Shown: piece after piece, positions 3,682-7,521 of the stretch
Numbering within the stretch: the stretch's first letter is position 1
How the letters are laid out: each line of letters starts with the position of its first letter
Source of the DNA: Nitrospirae bacterium JdFR-86
Lineage (GTDB): Bacteria; Nitrospirota; Thermodesulfovibrionia; Thermodesulfovibrionales; JdFR-86
Direction of reading: 5' to 3'
Length of the DNA stretch: 46,205 nucleotides
NCBI GenBank assembly: GCA_002011815.1
Contig: MTOV01000002.1
Location: forward strand, 188,043-234,247
Made by a program: the position numbers and the translations under genes
The notes under the pieces: model-generated
Database searches by the model: none
Told to the model about the DNA's origin: nothing
Seen by the model: the letters and a program-made list of their open reading frames with translations, nothing else

Positions 3682-4809
3682 ATGAGGTATTATCTTTCAG
3701 AAGACTGCGTTCTCAAGTGGCTTGAAACACCCTGCGTATACCAGATGAATACAGACGAACTCTTTGAACTTGATAACGAGGCATTCGAATTTCTGACAGA
3801 ATGCGCCGGTGAGAACGGATGCGATACAGAGGACAACGAATTTCTAAACTATTGCCTCAGCGAAGGCATACTCCAAACCGAAAAGCCTGATATAAAGAGA
3901 CTTCCGGTCAGCAAATCACCTGAGCCTTCTTTAAGGTATCTTGAACTTCAGATCACCAAGAAGTGTAATCTTAGGTGTAAACACTGCTATATAGGTCCGC
4001 CGGCTGACACAGAGCTGTCACTTCAAGACATAAAACGCACACTTGATGAATTTCAAGAAATACAGGGATTAAGACTCCTTATCACAGGCGGAGAACCTGT
4101 AATGCACACACAGTTCAATGAGATAAACGCCCTTCTTCCCGACTACGCCATGCGGAAAATCCTGTTTACAAACGGCACACTTATCACAGAAAGACTTCTT
4201 GAAGAACTCAATGTGGACGAGATACAGGTCAGTGTGGACGGCATCGGGGACTCGCATGATGCCTTAAGAGGAAAGGACAGTTTCAAAAAAGCCATAAGAT
4301 GTATAAAACTCGCCCTTGACAAAGGATTTGATGTCTCCGTGTCCACAATGGTGCACTCGGAAAACCTTGATGATTTCGATGAAATGAAAGAGATGTTTAA
4401 GATCATGGGGATAAAGGGCTGGACAGTAGATATCCCCTGCCTTGAAGGAAATCTAAAGGAAAACACGTCGTTTCATCTGTCTCCTGAGAAAGCCGGCAAG
4501 TATCTGAGATATGGCTTTGGCGCTGGACTTCACGGCGGTGGGGAAGGCTTTGCCTGCGGACTTCATCTGATGTCTGTAACCGCTGAAGGAAACTGTGCCA
4601 AATGCACATTTTATTCTGAAGAGCCAGTTGGACACATCAGCGAAGGACTGGCTCAATGCTGGCAGAGAATCAGACACATCAGACTTGAAGAACTCGACTG
4701 CGATTGCGATGAACTGGATATATGCAGAGGAGGCTGCAGATACAGGGCAGAACACCTGCTCGGGAAAGACCTTTACAAGTGTGTCCTCTATGATAAAATC
4801 AAGATATGA
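3682..4809 (+). CDS. Radical SAM/SPASM peptide maturase with PqqD-like N domain
   Basis: A 375-residue enzyme. Residues 1-70 look like a PqqD/RRE-type precursor-binding winged helix (LFELDNEAFEFLTE, FLNYCLSEGILQ). The radical SAM core carries CNLRCKHC (Cys95, 99, 102), binding the [4Fe-4S] cluster, and the SAM-binding GGEP (136-139). The C-terminal third is a Cys-rich SPASM domain (CGLHLMS, GNCAKC, DCDCDELDICRGGC, KCVLYD) for auxiliary clusters. This is the architecture of enzymes that modify ribosomal peptides, such as PqqE, AlbA and sactisynthases. A 20-residue Cys-rich peptide gene follows 21 nt downstream and is the likely substrate. It may belong to the group annotated as putative geopeptide maturases, but that could not be checked here. 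Confidence 0.9.
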   Translation: MRYYLSEDCVLKWLETPCVYQMNTDELFELDNEAFEFLTECAGENGCDTEDNEFLNYCLSEGILQTEKPDIKRLPVSKSPEPSLRYLELQITKKCNLRCKHCYIGPPADTELSLQDIKRTLDEFQEIQGLRLLITGGEPVMHTQFNEINALLPDYAMRKILFTNGTLITERLLEELNVDEIQVSVDGIGDSHDALRGKDSFKKAIRCIKLALDKGFDVSVSTMVHSENLDDFDEMKEMFKIMGIKGWTVDIPCLEGNLKENTSFHLSPEKAGKYLRYGFGAGLHGGGEGFACGLHLMSVTAEGNCAKCTFYSEEPVGHISEGLAQCWQRIRHIRLEELDCDCDELDICRGGCRYRAEHLLGKDLYKCVLYDKIKI

Positions 4810-4830
4810 GAAGCAAAGGGGGGTGGACTC

Positions 4831-4893
4831 ATGACCATCAAAAAATTCTCCAGAAAAATCTCAATTACTTGCAAATGCAAGGGTTCCTGCTGA
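4831..4893 (+). CDS. Candidate RiPP precursor peptide, 20 aa, Cys-rich
   Basis: An ATG at 4831, preceded by a strong Shine-Dalgarno stretch (AAAGGGGGGTGG, 6 nt before the start), opens a frame encoding MTIKKFSRKISITCKCKGSC and stops at TGA 4891-4893. The first 13 residues are basic and lack cysteine (leader-like). The last seven are CKCKGSC, with Cys14, Cys16 and Cys20 as possible targets for radical thioether or other crosslinks. It lies 21 nt behind the radical SAM/SPASM gene in the same orientation. Small size, Shine-Dalgarno quality, Cys-rich end and neighbour together support a ribosomally made, post-translationally modified peptide. No protease or exporter is adjacent. It is too short for ordinary gene callers. 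Confidence 0.72.
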   Translation: MTIKKFSRKISITCKCKGSC

Positions 4894-4961
4894 ATTGTCT
4901 TTCCGCAGCAGCCGATAGCCCATGCTTCAGGACTACCGGCTGCCCTCAGCAGGTTTGACCC
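4881..4961 (+). promoter_or_regulatory. Nested stem-loop overlapping the peptide stop codon
   Basis: Outer arms GGGT (4881-4884) and ACCC (4958-4961). Then a perfect 8-bp stem CCTGCTGA (4886-4893, containing the peptide TGA) with TCAGCAGG (4946-4953). Inside is a 7-bp stem GCAGCCG (4908-4914) with CGGCTGC (4937-4943), extended by TAG/CTA. There is no U-tract, so it is not a typical intrinsic terminator. It could stabilise or process the peptide mRNA, act as an unknown cis element, or form a recoding structure. The function is unknown. Confidence 0.6.
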
Positions 4962-4984
4962 GCATGCCGCTTTAATGCCATAAT
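4955..4984 (+). promoter_or_regulatory. Promoter of the TPR gene, leaderless type
   Basis: TTGACC (4955-4960), an 18-nt spacer and CATAAT (4979-4984). The ATG at 4990 begins only 5 nt after the -10 box and has no Shine-Dalgarno sequence, so transcription would start on or beside the start codon. The -35 box overlaps the 3' arm of the upstream stem-loop. Confidence 0.55.
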
Positions 4985-4989
4985 TACCT

Positions 4990-6684
4990 ATGAAAAAAAG
5001 CTTCTTCGTGATATTTTTGGCAGTCGTATTTTCCCTCTCCTGCACCCTAAAGCATACAAAGGTTCAAAATTACGACCCGGGGTTAAAAGATGCATATTAC
5101 TACTATATCCTCGGGTATGAAGCCGAGCTTTCCGGCAAATGGGAAGAAGCACTCGCCCATTACAGGAAGGCTCACAGCTTCGATCCAAAATCCCCGTTTA
5201 TAAGCATCCAAATCAGCTCCATTCTCCTGAAGATGGGAAAAATCAAAGAAGCCCTCATTATTGCCGAAGAAACAGTAAAACAAGCACCTGATTATGTTCC
5301 GGCATTGATGCACCTCGGACAACTCTACAACAGCCAGAACAATACAGAAAAAGCCATTAAAACCTATAAAAGAATCATCAAAATCGCCCCTGACAATAAA
5401 AACGCATATCTTCATCTCGGAGCCCTTTATATCTCCGAAAAGAAATACAACAAAGCCAAAAAAATACTAAAAACCTTGCTCGACAGAGACCCGGAAAACG
5501 TCATGGCCGTCTATTACATCGGTTACATCGAAATGGAATTAAACAACTATGACGCCGCTGAAGAACGATTTAAAGAAGTCTTAGACCTGAGACCGAATTT
5601 CGATGCCCCATACCTTTACCTCGGTCTTATAAGCGAGCTTAAAAACAATATCTCAGACGCGGAAAAATACTACAAGAAGGCAACAGAACTAAACCCTCAT
5701 AACACACTCGCAAGAGAAAAACTCATGCAGATATATATAAAACAGGAGACTGTTGACAAGGCGATCGAACAGCTAAAAGAAATGAATCTCTTCGACCCGT
5801 CGAATATAGATATTCATCGAAGGCTTGCCTCACTTTACATGAAGGACAAACAATATGCCGAGGCTGTAAAAGAATTCAGAATCGTGCTTGAGGCAAAACC
5901 CGAAGACATCTACATTAGATACTATCTGGCACTCGCTCTTGAAGAACTGGGAAGAAACGAAGAGGCTATAGAAGAACTGAAAAAGATTACTTCTCTTGAT
6001 CCCAAAAACATAAACGCCTTTGTATTACTCGGCTATATATACTCAAACCTCGGACGCGATGAGGATGCAGCCAGAGTTTATGAAGAGATACTGAGTTTTG
6101 AAAAAGGAAAGCCTGAAATCTTCGTCTATCTCGGAACCGTGTATCTGCACATGGAAGAGTATGAAAAGGCAGAGAAAGTCCTTAAAGAAGGAATTTCTCT
6201 GTTTGACACACACGATGAACTTCACTTCAGCCTCTCTGTTTTATATGAAAAACTTGGCAGGTTCGATGAGATGATAGAGAATCTCAAGCGCACCATAGAG
6301 CTTAATCCAGAACACGCAGAAGCACTAAACTATCTCGGTTACAGCTATGCGGAAAAAGGCACGAATCTGGAAGAAGCACTGTCGCTGATAGAAAGGGCGC
6401 TTCAGCTTAAACCTGACAGCGGCTACATCGTTGACAGTCTTGGCTGGGTCTACTTTAAGATGGGACGCTATAAGGAGGCAATTGATACACTTAAAAAGGC
6501 AATTGATATGGTTGACGATGACCCTGTTATTTACGAACATTTAGGCGATGCATACCTTGCAATAGGAATGAAATCAAAAGCACTTGAAGCATGGCAAAAA
6601 GCACTCCAGTTTCATGAAAAAGAAAAAGGGCTGAAAGAAAGAGTAGAAGAAAAAATAAAAAATCTCAGTAAAGACACCCCCTGA
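4990..6684 (+). CDS. TPR-repeat lipoprotein
   Basis: A 564-residue protein starting MKKSFFVIFLAVVFSLSCTL: a basic start, a hydrophobic segment and a lipobox-like SLSC, so it is probably a lipoprotein facing the periplasm. The lipobox is slightly off consensus at -3. From residue about 30 to the end it consists of roughly fifteen 34-residue tetratricopeptide repeats, seen as periodic A-x-x-x-Y/L-x-x-P patterns (for example LDRDPENVMAVYYIGYIEME and AIELNPEHAEALNYLGYSYA). TPR arrays of this kind scaffold protein complexes, often in cell-envelope or exopolysaccharide systems. It is 6 nt from ispE and is probably cotranscribed with it. No specific partner can be named. Confidence 0.9.
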   Translation: MKKSFFVIFLAVVFSLSCTLKHTKVQNYDPGLKDAYYYYILGYEAELSGKWEEALAHYRKAHSFDPKSPFISIQISSILLKMGKIKEALIIAEETVKQAPDYVPALMHLGQLYNSQNNTEKAIKTYKRIIKIAPDNKNAYLHLGALYISEKKYNKAKKILKTLLDRDPENVMAVYYIGYIEMELNNYDAAEERFKEVLDLRPNFDAPYLYLGLISELKNNISDAEKYYKKATELNPHNTLAREKLMQIYIKQETVDKAIEQLKEMNLFDPSNIDIHRRLASLYMKDKQYAEAVKEFRIVLEAKPEDIYIRYYLALALEELGRNEEAIEELKKITSLDPKNINAFVLLGYIYSNLGRDEDAARVYEEILSFEKGKPEIFVYLGTVYLHMEEYEKAEKVLKEGISLFDTHDELHFSLSVLYEKLGRFDEMIENLKRTIELNPEHAEALNYLGYSYAEKGTNLEEALSLIERALQLKPDSGYIVDSLGWVYFKMGRYKEAIDTLKKAIDMVDDDPVIYEHLGDAYLAIGMKSKALEAWQKALQFHEKEKGLKERVEEKIKNLSKDTP

Positions 6685-6690
6685 CAGACA

Positions 6691-7521
6691 ATGCTCACGC
6701 TTAAAGCTCCTGCAAAGATTAACTGGTTTCTTCTTGTCCTCGGCAGAAGACCTGACGGCTACCACGATATCCAGAGCCTGATGCAGTGTGTAAGTCTCTA
6801 TGATTATCTCACCTTTGAAGACTCAGACACTATCGAGATAATAACCGATGCTGATATTCCACTGGAGGAAAATCTCATTTACAAGACAGCAGTCAGGCTC
6901 AAAGAACAGTCAGGTGTAGAAAAAGGCGCAAGGATAACATTAAAAAAACATATCCCGCTTGCAGCAGGTCTTGGCGGCGGAAGCTCAGATGCGGCATGCA
7001 CCCTCAAAGGACTGACTACCCTGTGGAAGCTGAACATCCCTGAGGCAAAACTTTTAGAGATAGCAGGCACAATCGGCTCTGATGTGCCTTTCTTCCTGAA
7101 AGGGCATTCTGCCCTTGTGGAAGGCAGAGGGGAAAAAGTCACACCTGTAAGTCTTAAACGCTCATTTATCATGGTGCTTGTAAAACCCCCGGTGGGTGTG
7201 TCCGCAAAATGGGCGTATTCAGGCATAAAGGAACTGACAAAGAAAGCCAATAATATCGAACTCTTTATTCAGGCTCTCGAGGCAGGAGATTTCCCATCCA
7301 TTAAGTCAATGGCAAAAAACGACCTTGAAAATCCTGTGCTCAGAAGATATCCGGTGGTAAACGAACTCAAGGGCAAACTGCTTGACTGCGGTGCATTACT
7401 GGCTGCGATGAGCGGAAGTGGACCAACGGTCTTCGGAGTCTTTGAAAACCGAACAGAGGCGGAAAAGGCAGTAGATGCCGTATCTCCTCAGTGGGCAAAA
7501 ATCGTTGAGACCTTATTATGA
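6691..7521 (+). CDS. ispE: 4-diphosphocytidyl-2-C-methyl-D-erythritol kinase
   Basis: A 276-residue GHMP kinase of the non-mevalonate isoprenoid pathway. It phosphorylates CDP-methylerythritol at the 2-hydroxyl. The N-terminal signature APAKINWFLLVLGRRPDGYH is intact. The ATP loop PLAAGLGGGSSDAA lies near residue 90, and the C-terminal glycine-rich motif AAMSGSGPTVFGVF near residue 230. The length is normal. It starts 6 nt after the TPR gene, with no strong Shine-Dalgarno sequence. In many bacteria ispE sits just upstream of prs and rplY, as here, with tRNA-Gln in between. Confidence 0.96.
   Translation: MLTLKAPAKINWFLLVLGRRPDGYHDIQSLMQCVSLYDYLTFEDSDTIEIITDADIPLEENLIYKTAVRLKEQSGVEKGARITLKKHIPLAAGLGGGSSDAACTLKGLTTLWKLNIPEAKLLEIAGTIGSDVPFFLKGHSALVEGRGEKVTPVSLKRSFIMVLVKPPVGVSAKWAYSGIKELTKKANNIELFIQALEAGDFPSIKSMAKNDLENPVLRRYPVVNELKGKLLDCGALLAAMSGSGPTVFGVFENRTEAEKAVDAVSPQWAKIVETLL

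Follow-up and report, generated by a model that had tools for sequence, protein, structure and literature searches.

A radical SAM/SPASM enzyme and a 20-residue cysteine-rich peptide, its probable substrate, are co-inherited in bacteria and archaea

We found that the window, by which we mean the whole analysed stretch of 46,205 nucleotides from Nitrospirae bacterium JdFR-86, carries two closely spaced genes on its forward strand. The first (3682-4809, with its stop codon at 4807-4809) encodes a radical SAM/SPASM enzyme of 375 amino acids, recognised from its open reading frame, a Pfam match, the SPASM cysteine pattern and the predicted fold. The second is a 20-codon candidate precursor peptide gene encoding MTIKKFSRKISITCKCKGSC, which runs from the ATG at 4831 to the TGA ending at 4893 and is marked out by its conservation, its co-occurrence with the enzyme and a pN far below pS. 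This peptide gene carries no annotation, and its C-terminal end reads Cys-Lys-Cys-Lys-Gly-Ser-Cys, the codons of which (4870-4890, forward strand) form the proposed modified core. Across the six frames of the entire 46-kb window, CxCxxxC followed by a stop codon occurs a single time, in this gene, and NCBIfam searches with the peptides returned no match. The 21 nucleotides between the enzyme stop and the peptide ATG (4810-4830, GAAGCAAAGGGGGGTGGACTC) contain a G-rich ribosome-binding site, AAAGGGGGG, where relatives carry AAAGGAGGTG at the equivalent place. The sequence-only reading had pointed to this frame 21 nt past the enzyme and to a strong Shine-Dalgarno sequence; the frame and a ribosome site are indeed there, but the site in the window is weaker than that of the relatives. 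In an AlphaFold model of a read-through fusion of enzyme and peptide, the peptide is disordered, with a pLDDT under 35, and its position is not fixed.

Upon examining the enzyme, we observe CNLRCKHC at residues 95-102, GGEP at residues 136-139 and the cysteines C292-x10-G303-x4-C308, C340-x-C342-x5-C348-x3-C352 and C367, which follow the seven-cysteine SPASM pattern Cx9-15Gx4C ... CxnCx5Cx3C ... C and which, like the CNLRCKHC motif, had been picked out from the letters alone. The SPASM cysteines are invariant across relatives, except C367, which is kept in 90% or more, and the spacing between the third and the fourth, one residue in the window enzyme, is variable among relatives. Radical_SAM (PF04055, 1.6e-23) is the sole Pfam name given to the enzyme, and the Pfam SPASM model does not match it despite the seven-cysteine pattern. 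With the CxxxCxxC motif and the core fold present, the enzyme belongs to the radical SAM superfamily and has a SPASM domain. Against NCBIfam the window enzyme stays far below every cut-off, including those of the sacti- and ranthipeptide maturase models, and its best score is 100 bits where 525 are required. The AlphaFold model (pLDDT 85) places N-terminal strands and two helices before the barrel, and the nearest structures to this fold, matching over the full length, are SkfB (5e-14) and SuiB, with SkfB 16% identical in the structural alignment. When the enzyme profile was compared with solved proteins, the nearest were again SkfB (7e-22), followed by cytosylglucuronate decarboxylase, PqqE (1e-14) and 5wgg/5why (1.4e-14), which we take to be CteB. 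Of these, SkfB, SuiB, PqqE and CteB are RiPP maturases, and SkfB and SuiB have an RRE. The predicted fold suggests an RRE-like N-terminal domain at about residues 1-80; sequence profiles detect no RRE (PqqD-like) domain in the enzyme, so the PqqD-like domain proposed by the sequence-only reading has the fold as its support and finds no echo in the profiles.

Regarding the peptide, the same 20-codon frame with a Shine-Dalgarno sequence lies directly 3' of the enzyme in 18 of the first 29 homologous loci, for which all downstream frames with at least two cysteines had been listed and the motif had not been used as a filter. When whole genomes were scanned with the tail pattern, 83 of 121 relatives had it, and the reversed control pattern gave 0 matches; a loose cysteine pattern was uninformative. 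The consensus is approximately M-x-I-[KR]-K-[VI]-x-[KR]-K-x(3)-T-C-K-C-x-x-S-C, in 19-20 codons; peptides encoded away from the enzyme have the same short frame, nearly always of 19 or 20 residues, and a similar ribosome site. Those of family f9, for example, have 19 residues (MIKKVSGKAMPTCKCKGSC), and several archaeal and actinobacterial peptides have one extra C-terminal residue. Overall, the peptide is conserved in more than 100 genomes from two domains of life. Among 113 distinct coding sequences from bacteria and archaea, the last seven codons show a pN of 0.10 and a pS of 0.93, and the tail is under strong purifying selection. C14, C16, S19 and C20 are invariant in these 113 sequences, the invariance of the cysteines being partly imposed by the search pattern; position 19 is serine in 113 of 113, having been left free in some pattern searches and allowed to be alanine in another. 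A Hydrothermarchaeum genome carries three copies of the peptide (L300, L304, L306).

The two genes are inherited together. Both genes occur in 99 of 346 genomes from the phylum and neither in 237; a further 6 carry the enzyme without the peptide and 4 the peptide without the enzyme (p = 1.5e-73). The enzyme orthologue, about 45-66% identical, is present in one copy in 82 of the 121 relatives. Four of the six enzyme-only genomes carry a tail variant in which lysine is replaced by histidine (CKCHSSC in G042 and G085, CKCHQSC in G131 and G155), and in another, G150, the enzyme gene is merely partial. On the other side, one of the peptide-only genomes (G333) has enzyme fragments beside its peptides, and the remaining three (G018, G087 and G090) are true exceptions, with a peptide and no orthologous enzyme in the assembly; enzyme loss, an assembly gap or another maturase may explain them. 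Shared ancestry was allowed for by shuffling the peptide labels 20,000 times within taxonomic families: enzyme and peptide agree in 114 of 121 genomes, the best shuffle reached 102, and 0 of 20,000 attained the observed value. In families f1, f3 and f4 the two genes are either present together or absent together, and the co-occurrence holds even though the pair is unlinked in about half of the genomes. In a second set, comprising 149 relatives of an Archaeoglobus, 20 have the enzyme and 19 the peptide, all 19 lying within the 20 (p = 4e-23); archaeal members were part of the training set of the peptide model, so that this set replicates the co-occurrence and not the motif. The sequence-only reading had expected a conserved CxCxxxC micro-ORF with a ribosome site and synonymous bias near related enzymes, and had named enzyme homologues lacking it as the finding that would count against the pairing. 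The micro-ORF accompanies the enzyme, beside it or elsewhere, in nearly all genomes with a homologue, and homologues without it are very few. Since the peptide is nearly always found in the same genomes as the enzyme, the enzyme very probably modifies it, and a cognate short precursor gene co-inherited with its maturase, as in an RRE-dependent radical SAM RiPP system, is what we observe here.

Next to the peptide gene in the window lies a gene for a TPR lipoprotein (4990-6684, forward strand; TPR by Pfam), followed by ispE (6691-7521). The order peptide-TPR-ispE (4831-7521 in the window; L133-L141) is kept in family f9, where the enzyme sits elsewhere, and the TPR gene is probably a conserved neighbour of the peptide and not part of the system. 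Peptide genes, for instance those at L133 and L014, often have a short hairpin (CCCTATGAAAGGG, CTTTGCACAAAG) that immediately precedes the ribosome site or overlaps it; such hairpins stand upstream of 100 of 113 peptide genes against 80 in controls, a mild enrichment, and the window has none. The peptide precedes TPR-ispE in many genomes, and this order and the hairpins would suit a regulatory leader peptide for the downstream gene, with the nearness to the enzyme incidental. Such a reading is strongly disfavoured and we give it very little chance of being right, as an unchanged peptide is followed by very different genes from one family to the next, no Rfam RNA element was matched upstream of the peptide genes, and the co-occurrence with the enzyme is left unexplained. 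As the sequence-only reading had remarked for this locus, there is no adjacent transporter or protease, and across loci none recurs beside either gene. Genes nearby encode rubrerythrin, Fe-SOD, a flavodiiron protein, a nitroreductase or a 2-oxoacid:ferredoxin oxidoreductase (KorAB) in several families of Nitrospirota and at some loci of Desulfobacterota and archaea, and this hints weakly at a link to redox or oxygen-stress physiology. The neighbourhood was dropped as a guide to function, since housekeeping neighbours vary by family and the redox genes recur only in part. In more than one phylum a second radical SAM/SPASM gene overlaps or follows the enzyme (L178, 7107-8400; L116, 2113-3090), as does a cupin-like gene in some loci.

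When the search was extended to named genomes, an alignment-based scan recovered the enzyme in Nitrospirota including Candidatus Magnetobacterium, in Desulfobacterales and other records labelled Deltaproteobacteria, in Rokubacteria and Actinomycetota, and among archaea in Methanoperedens, Archaeoglobus/Geoglobus and Hydrothermarchaeum, with more distant matches in Lokiarchaeota and Sifarchaeum; a single-sequence scan of genome contigs had found no relatives, and plasmids and viral contigs gave no matches. The peptide adjoins the enzyme in Desulfobacterales, Rokubacteria, Actinomycetota, Methanoperedens, Hydrothermarchaeum and Archaeoglobus, examples being MKIRKVKKTPTGLCKCKRSC (Desulfobacteraceae), MKIEKVRKESGICKCNASCA (Archaeoglobus), MKIRKIKKTARGTCKCHSSCA (Methanoperedens) and VRITKIPRRKGGTCKCNKSCG (Actinomycetota), and it was not found in two Lokiarchaeota and one Sifarchaeum that carry the enzyme. 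The enzymes form a single, largely taxonomic tree in which most groups are kept together. The spread across two domains may reflect great age or early transfer, and the enzyme tree fits either.

A small protein with C-x2/3-C-x-[FY]-[FY]-K...L-x-C motifs, matching no family in the libraries searched, accompanies the enzyme in several phyla. Its gene and that of the enzyme are no more than about 40 nt apart in Archaeoglobus, Geoglobus, Methanoperedens, Lokiarchaeota, Rokubacteria, Desulfobacteraceae and Actinomycetes (L178, L184, L181, L195, L197, L200, L176, L179). The protein is also encoded close to the enzyme in many Nitrospirota (cluster c6), where its motif (CxxCxFYK..LxC) is doubled, and 28 of 107 loci have it within 400 nt. 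In three genomes (L051, L067, L073) it is fused to a domain that we call cupin-like on our own reading, Pfam giving it no name, and the genome of the window has a relative of the protein distant from the enzyme. We rejected it as an obligatory third part, because some genomes that lack the enzyme contain weaker relatives, and it neighbours the enzyme in only those 28 of 107 loci. Its company does bear on what the enzyme acts upon, since with such a partner the real substrate could be another molecule, and the 20-residue peptide, whose three invariant cysteines could ligate metal, could then be a tiny metal- or Fe-S-binding partner (a subunit, activator or electron carrier). We consider this improbable, as the basic leader, the invariant short C-terminal core, the RRE-like domain and the SkfB/SuiB-like fold together make up the architecture of a precursor and its maturase.

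We conclude with good confidence that the radical SAM/SPASM enzyme has the 20-residue peptide as its dedicated substrate. From this pairing we infer a course of binding, modification and use: the RRE-like N-terminal domain would bind the basic leader (M-x-I-K/R-K-V..KK), and the 5'-deoxyadenosyl radical formed at the [4Fe-4S]/SAM centre would react with CKCxxSC, the C-terminal heptapeptide, most plausibly so that at least one of its three invariant cysteines becomes joined through a thioether cross-link. We propose this because maturases of sacti- and ranthipeptides commonly form thioethers on cysteine-rich cores; the invariant cysteines are compatible with a thioether from the cysteine sulfur to an alpha, beta or gamma acceptor carbon, and by this analogy we hold the chemistry to be plausible, at slightly less than even chances. 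The product would be retained in the cell, where it would serve anaerobic metabolism as a small peptide or cofactor of thiol or thioether type that is redox-active or binds metal. Such an intracellular role, which we think fairly probable, is suggested by the lack of a recurrent exporter or protease, the single copy and the host range. Going further, the pair might make a new redox or metal cofactor of the PQQ or mycofactocin type, derived from the CKCxxSC of the peptide, ancient and common to anaerobic bacteria and archaea such as Thermodesulfovibrio relatives, Desulfobacterota, Archaeoglobi and Methanoperedens, with a precursor among the shortest known ribosomal ones; we offer this tentatively, and the chances are rather against it.

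A different fate of the product, with the same pairing of substrate and maturase, would follow if the peptide were a scaffold whose C-terminal residues are modified and from which a small molecule is later excised, yielding a low-molecular-weight cofactor. The conserved residues do lie at the extreme C-terminus, as they do in mycofactocin according to general knowledge, the gene is single-copy with a housekeeping-like distribution in anaerobes of two domains, no exporter recurs, and in several families the surroundings repeatedly include the second radical SAM/SPASM gene, the cupin-like gene and genes of redox proteins (rubrerythrin, SOD, flavodiiron protein, nitroreductase, KorAB). However, the loci show no recurrent dedicated peptidase or additional biosynthetic gene, the redox genes vary in their presence, and the extra C-terminal residue of several archaeal and actinobacterial peptides does not sit well with excision, so that we judge a scaffold unlikely.

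A radical SAM/SPASM maturase with a short precursor is an already known kind of system, and the retained, modified peptide that we favour shares features with several of them. The SCIFF/CteB-type ranthipeptides of Clostridia have six cysteines in forty-five residues, an RRE-bearing radical SAM/SPASM maturase, a single lineage-wide copy and no clear export. The present pair likewise joins a short cysteine-rich peptide to a radical SAM/SPASM maturase (its domain RRE-like, by fold), in single copy, widely conserved and with no clear export. Unlike SCIFF, the peptide has 20 residues instead of about 46 and three cysteines in place of the six in about 45 that define SCIFF, the core lies at the very C-terminus, the gene is often unlinked and occurs in bacteria and archaea, and the enzyme falls outside the SCIFF maturase family. 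SkfB, the best match of the enzyme among solved structures in both sequence and fold, is the maturase of the sporulation killing factor sactipeptide, with an N-terminal RRE, a radical SAM and a SPASM domain; it acts on an exported antimicrobial and its cluster includes transporter and protease genes, in contrast to the present loci, which have neither. PQQ (PqqA/PqqE) and mycofactocin (MftA/MftC) also pair a very short ribosomal peptide with a radical SAM/SPASM enzyme, in their case for an intracellular redox cofactor, whereas here the core residues are other, the RRE-like domain is fused instead of separate, and no peptidase or later-step genes recur. The GeoRSP system and the putative geopeptide maturase of NCBIfam are similar in being radical SAM/SPASM enzymes of anaerobic hosts, but archaeal and actinobacterial homologues score only 78-91 bits with GeoRSP_rSAM, whose cut-off is 400. 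For the window enzyme this model falls outside the best 25 in NCBIfam, and the geopeptide model appears in none of the best-25 lists. The kinship with geopeptides suggested by the sequence-only reading thus gains no backing, the literature searched holding nothing on the geopeptide (TIGR04280) either.

Neither in NCBIfam and Pfam nor in the literature searched, which took in few subscription papers or preprints, did we find a description of the enzyme family, its 20-residue precursor, the frequent unlinking of the two genes or their occurrence in two domains. The system is tiny, consisting of two genes and sometimes a third. Annotation can easily pass over a gene of 20 codons, but in two domains of life this one has stayed with a single enzyme. 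Precursor genes need not adjoin their maturases, and RiPP searches based on gene neighbourhood therefore miss such systems. Overall, the pair points to a widespread new modified peptide or cofactor of anaerobes.
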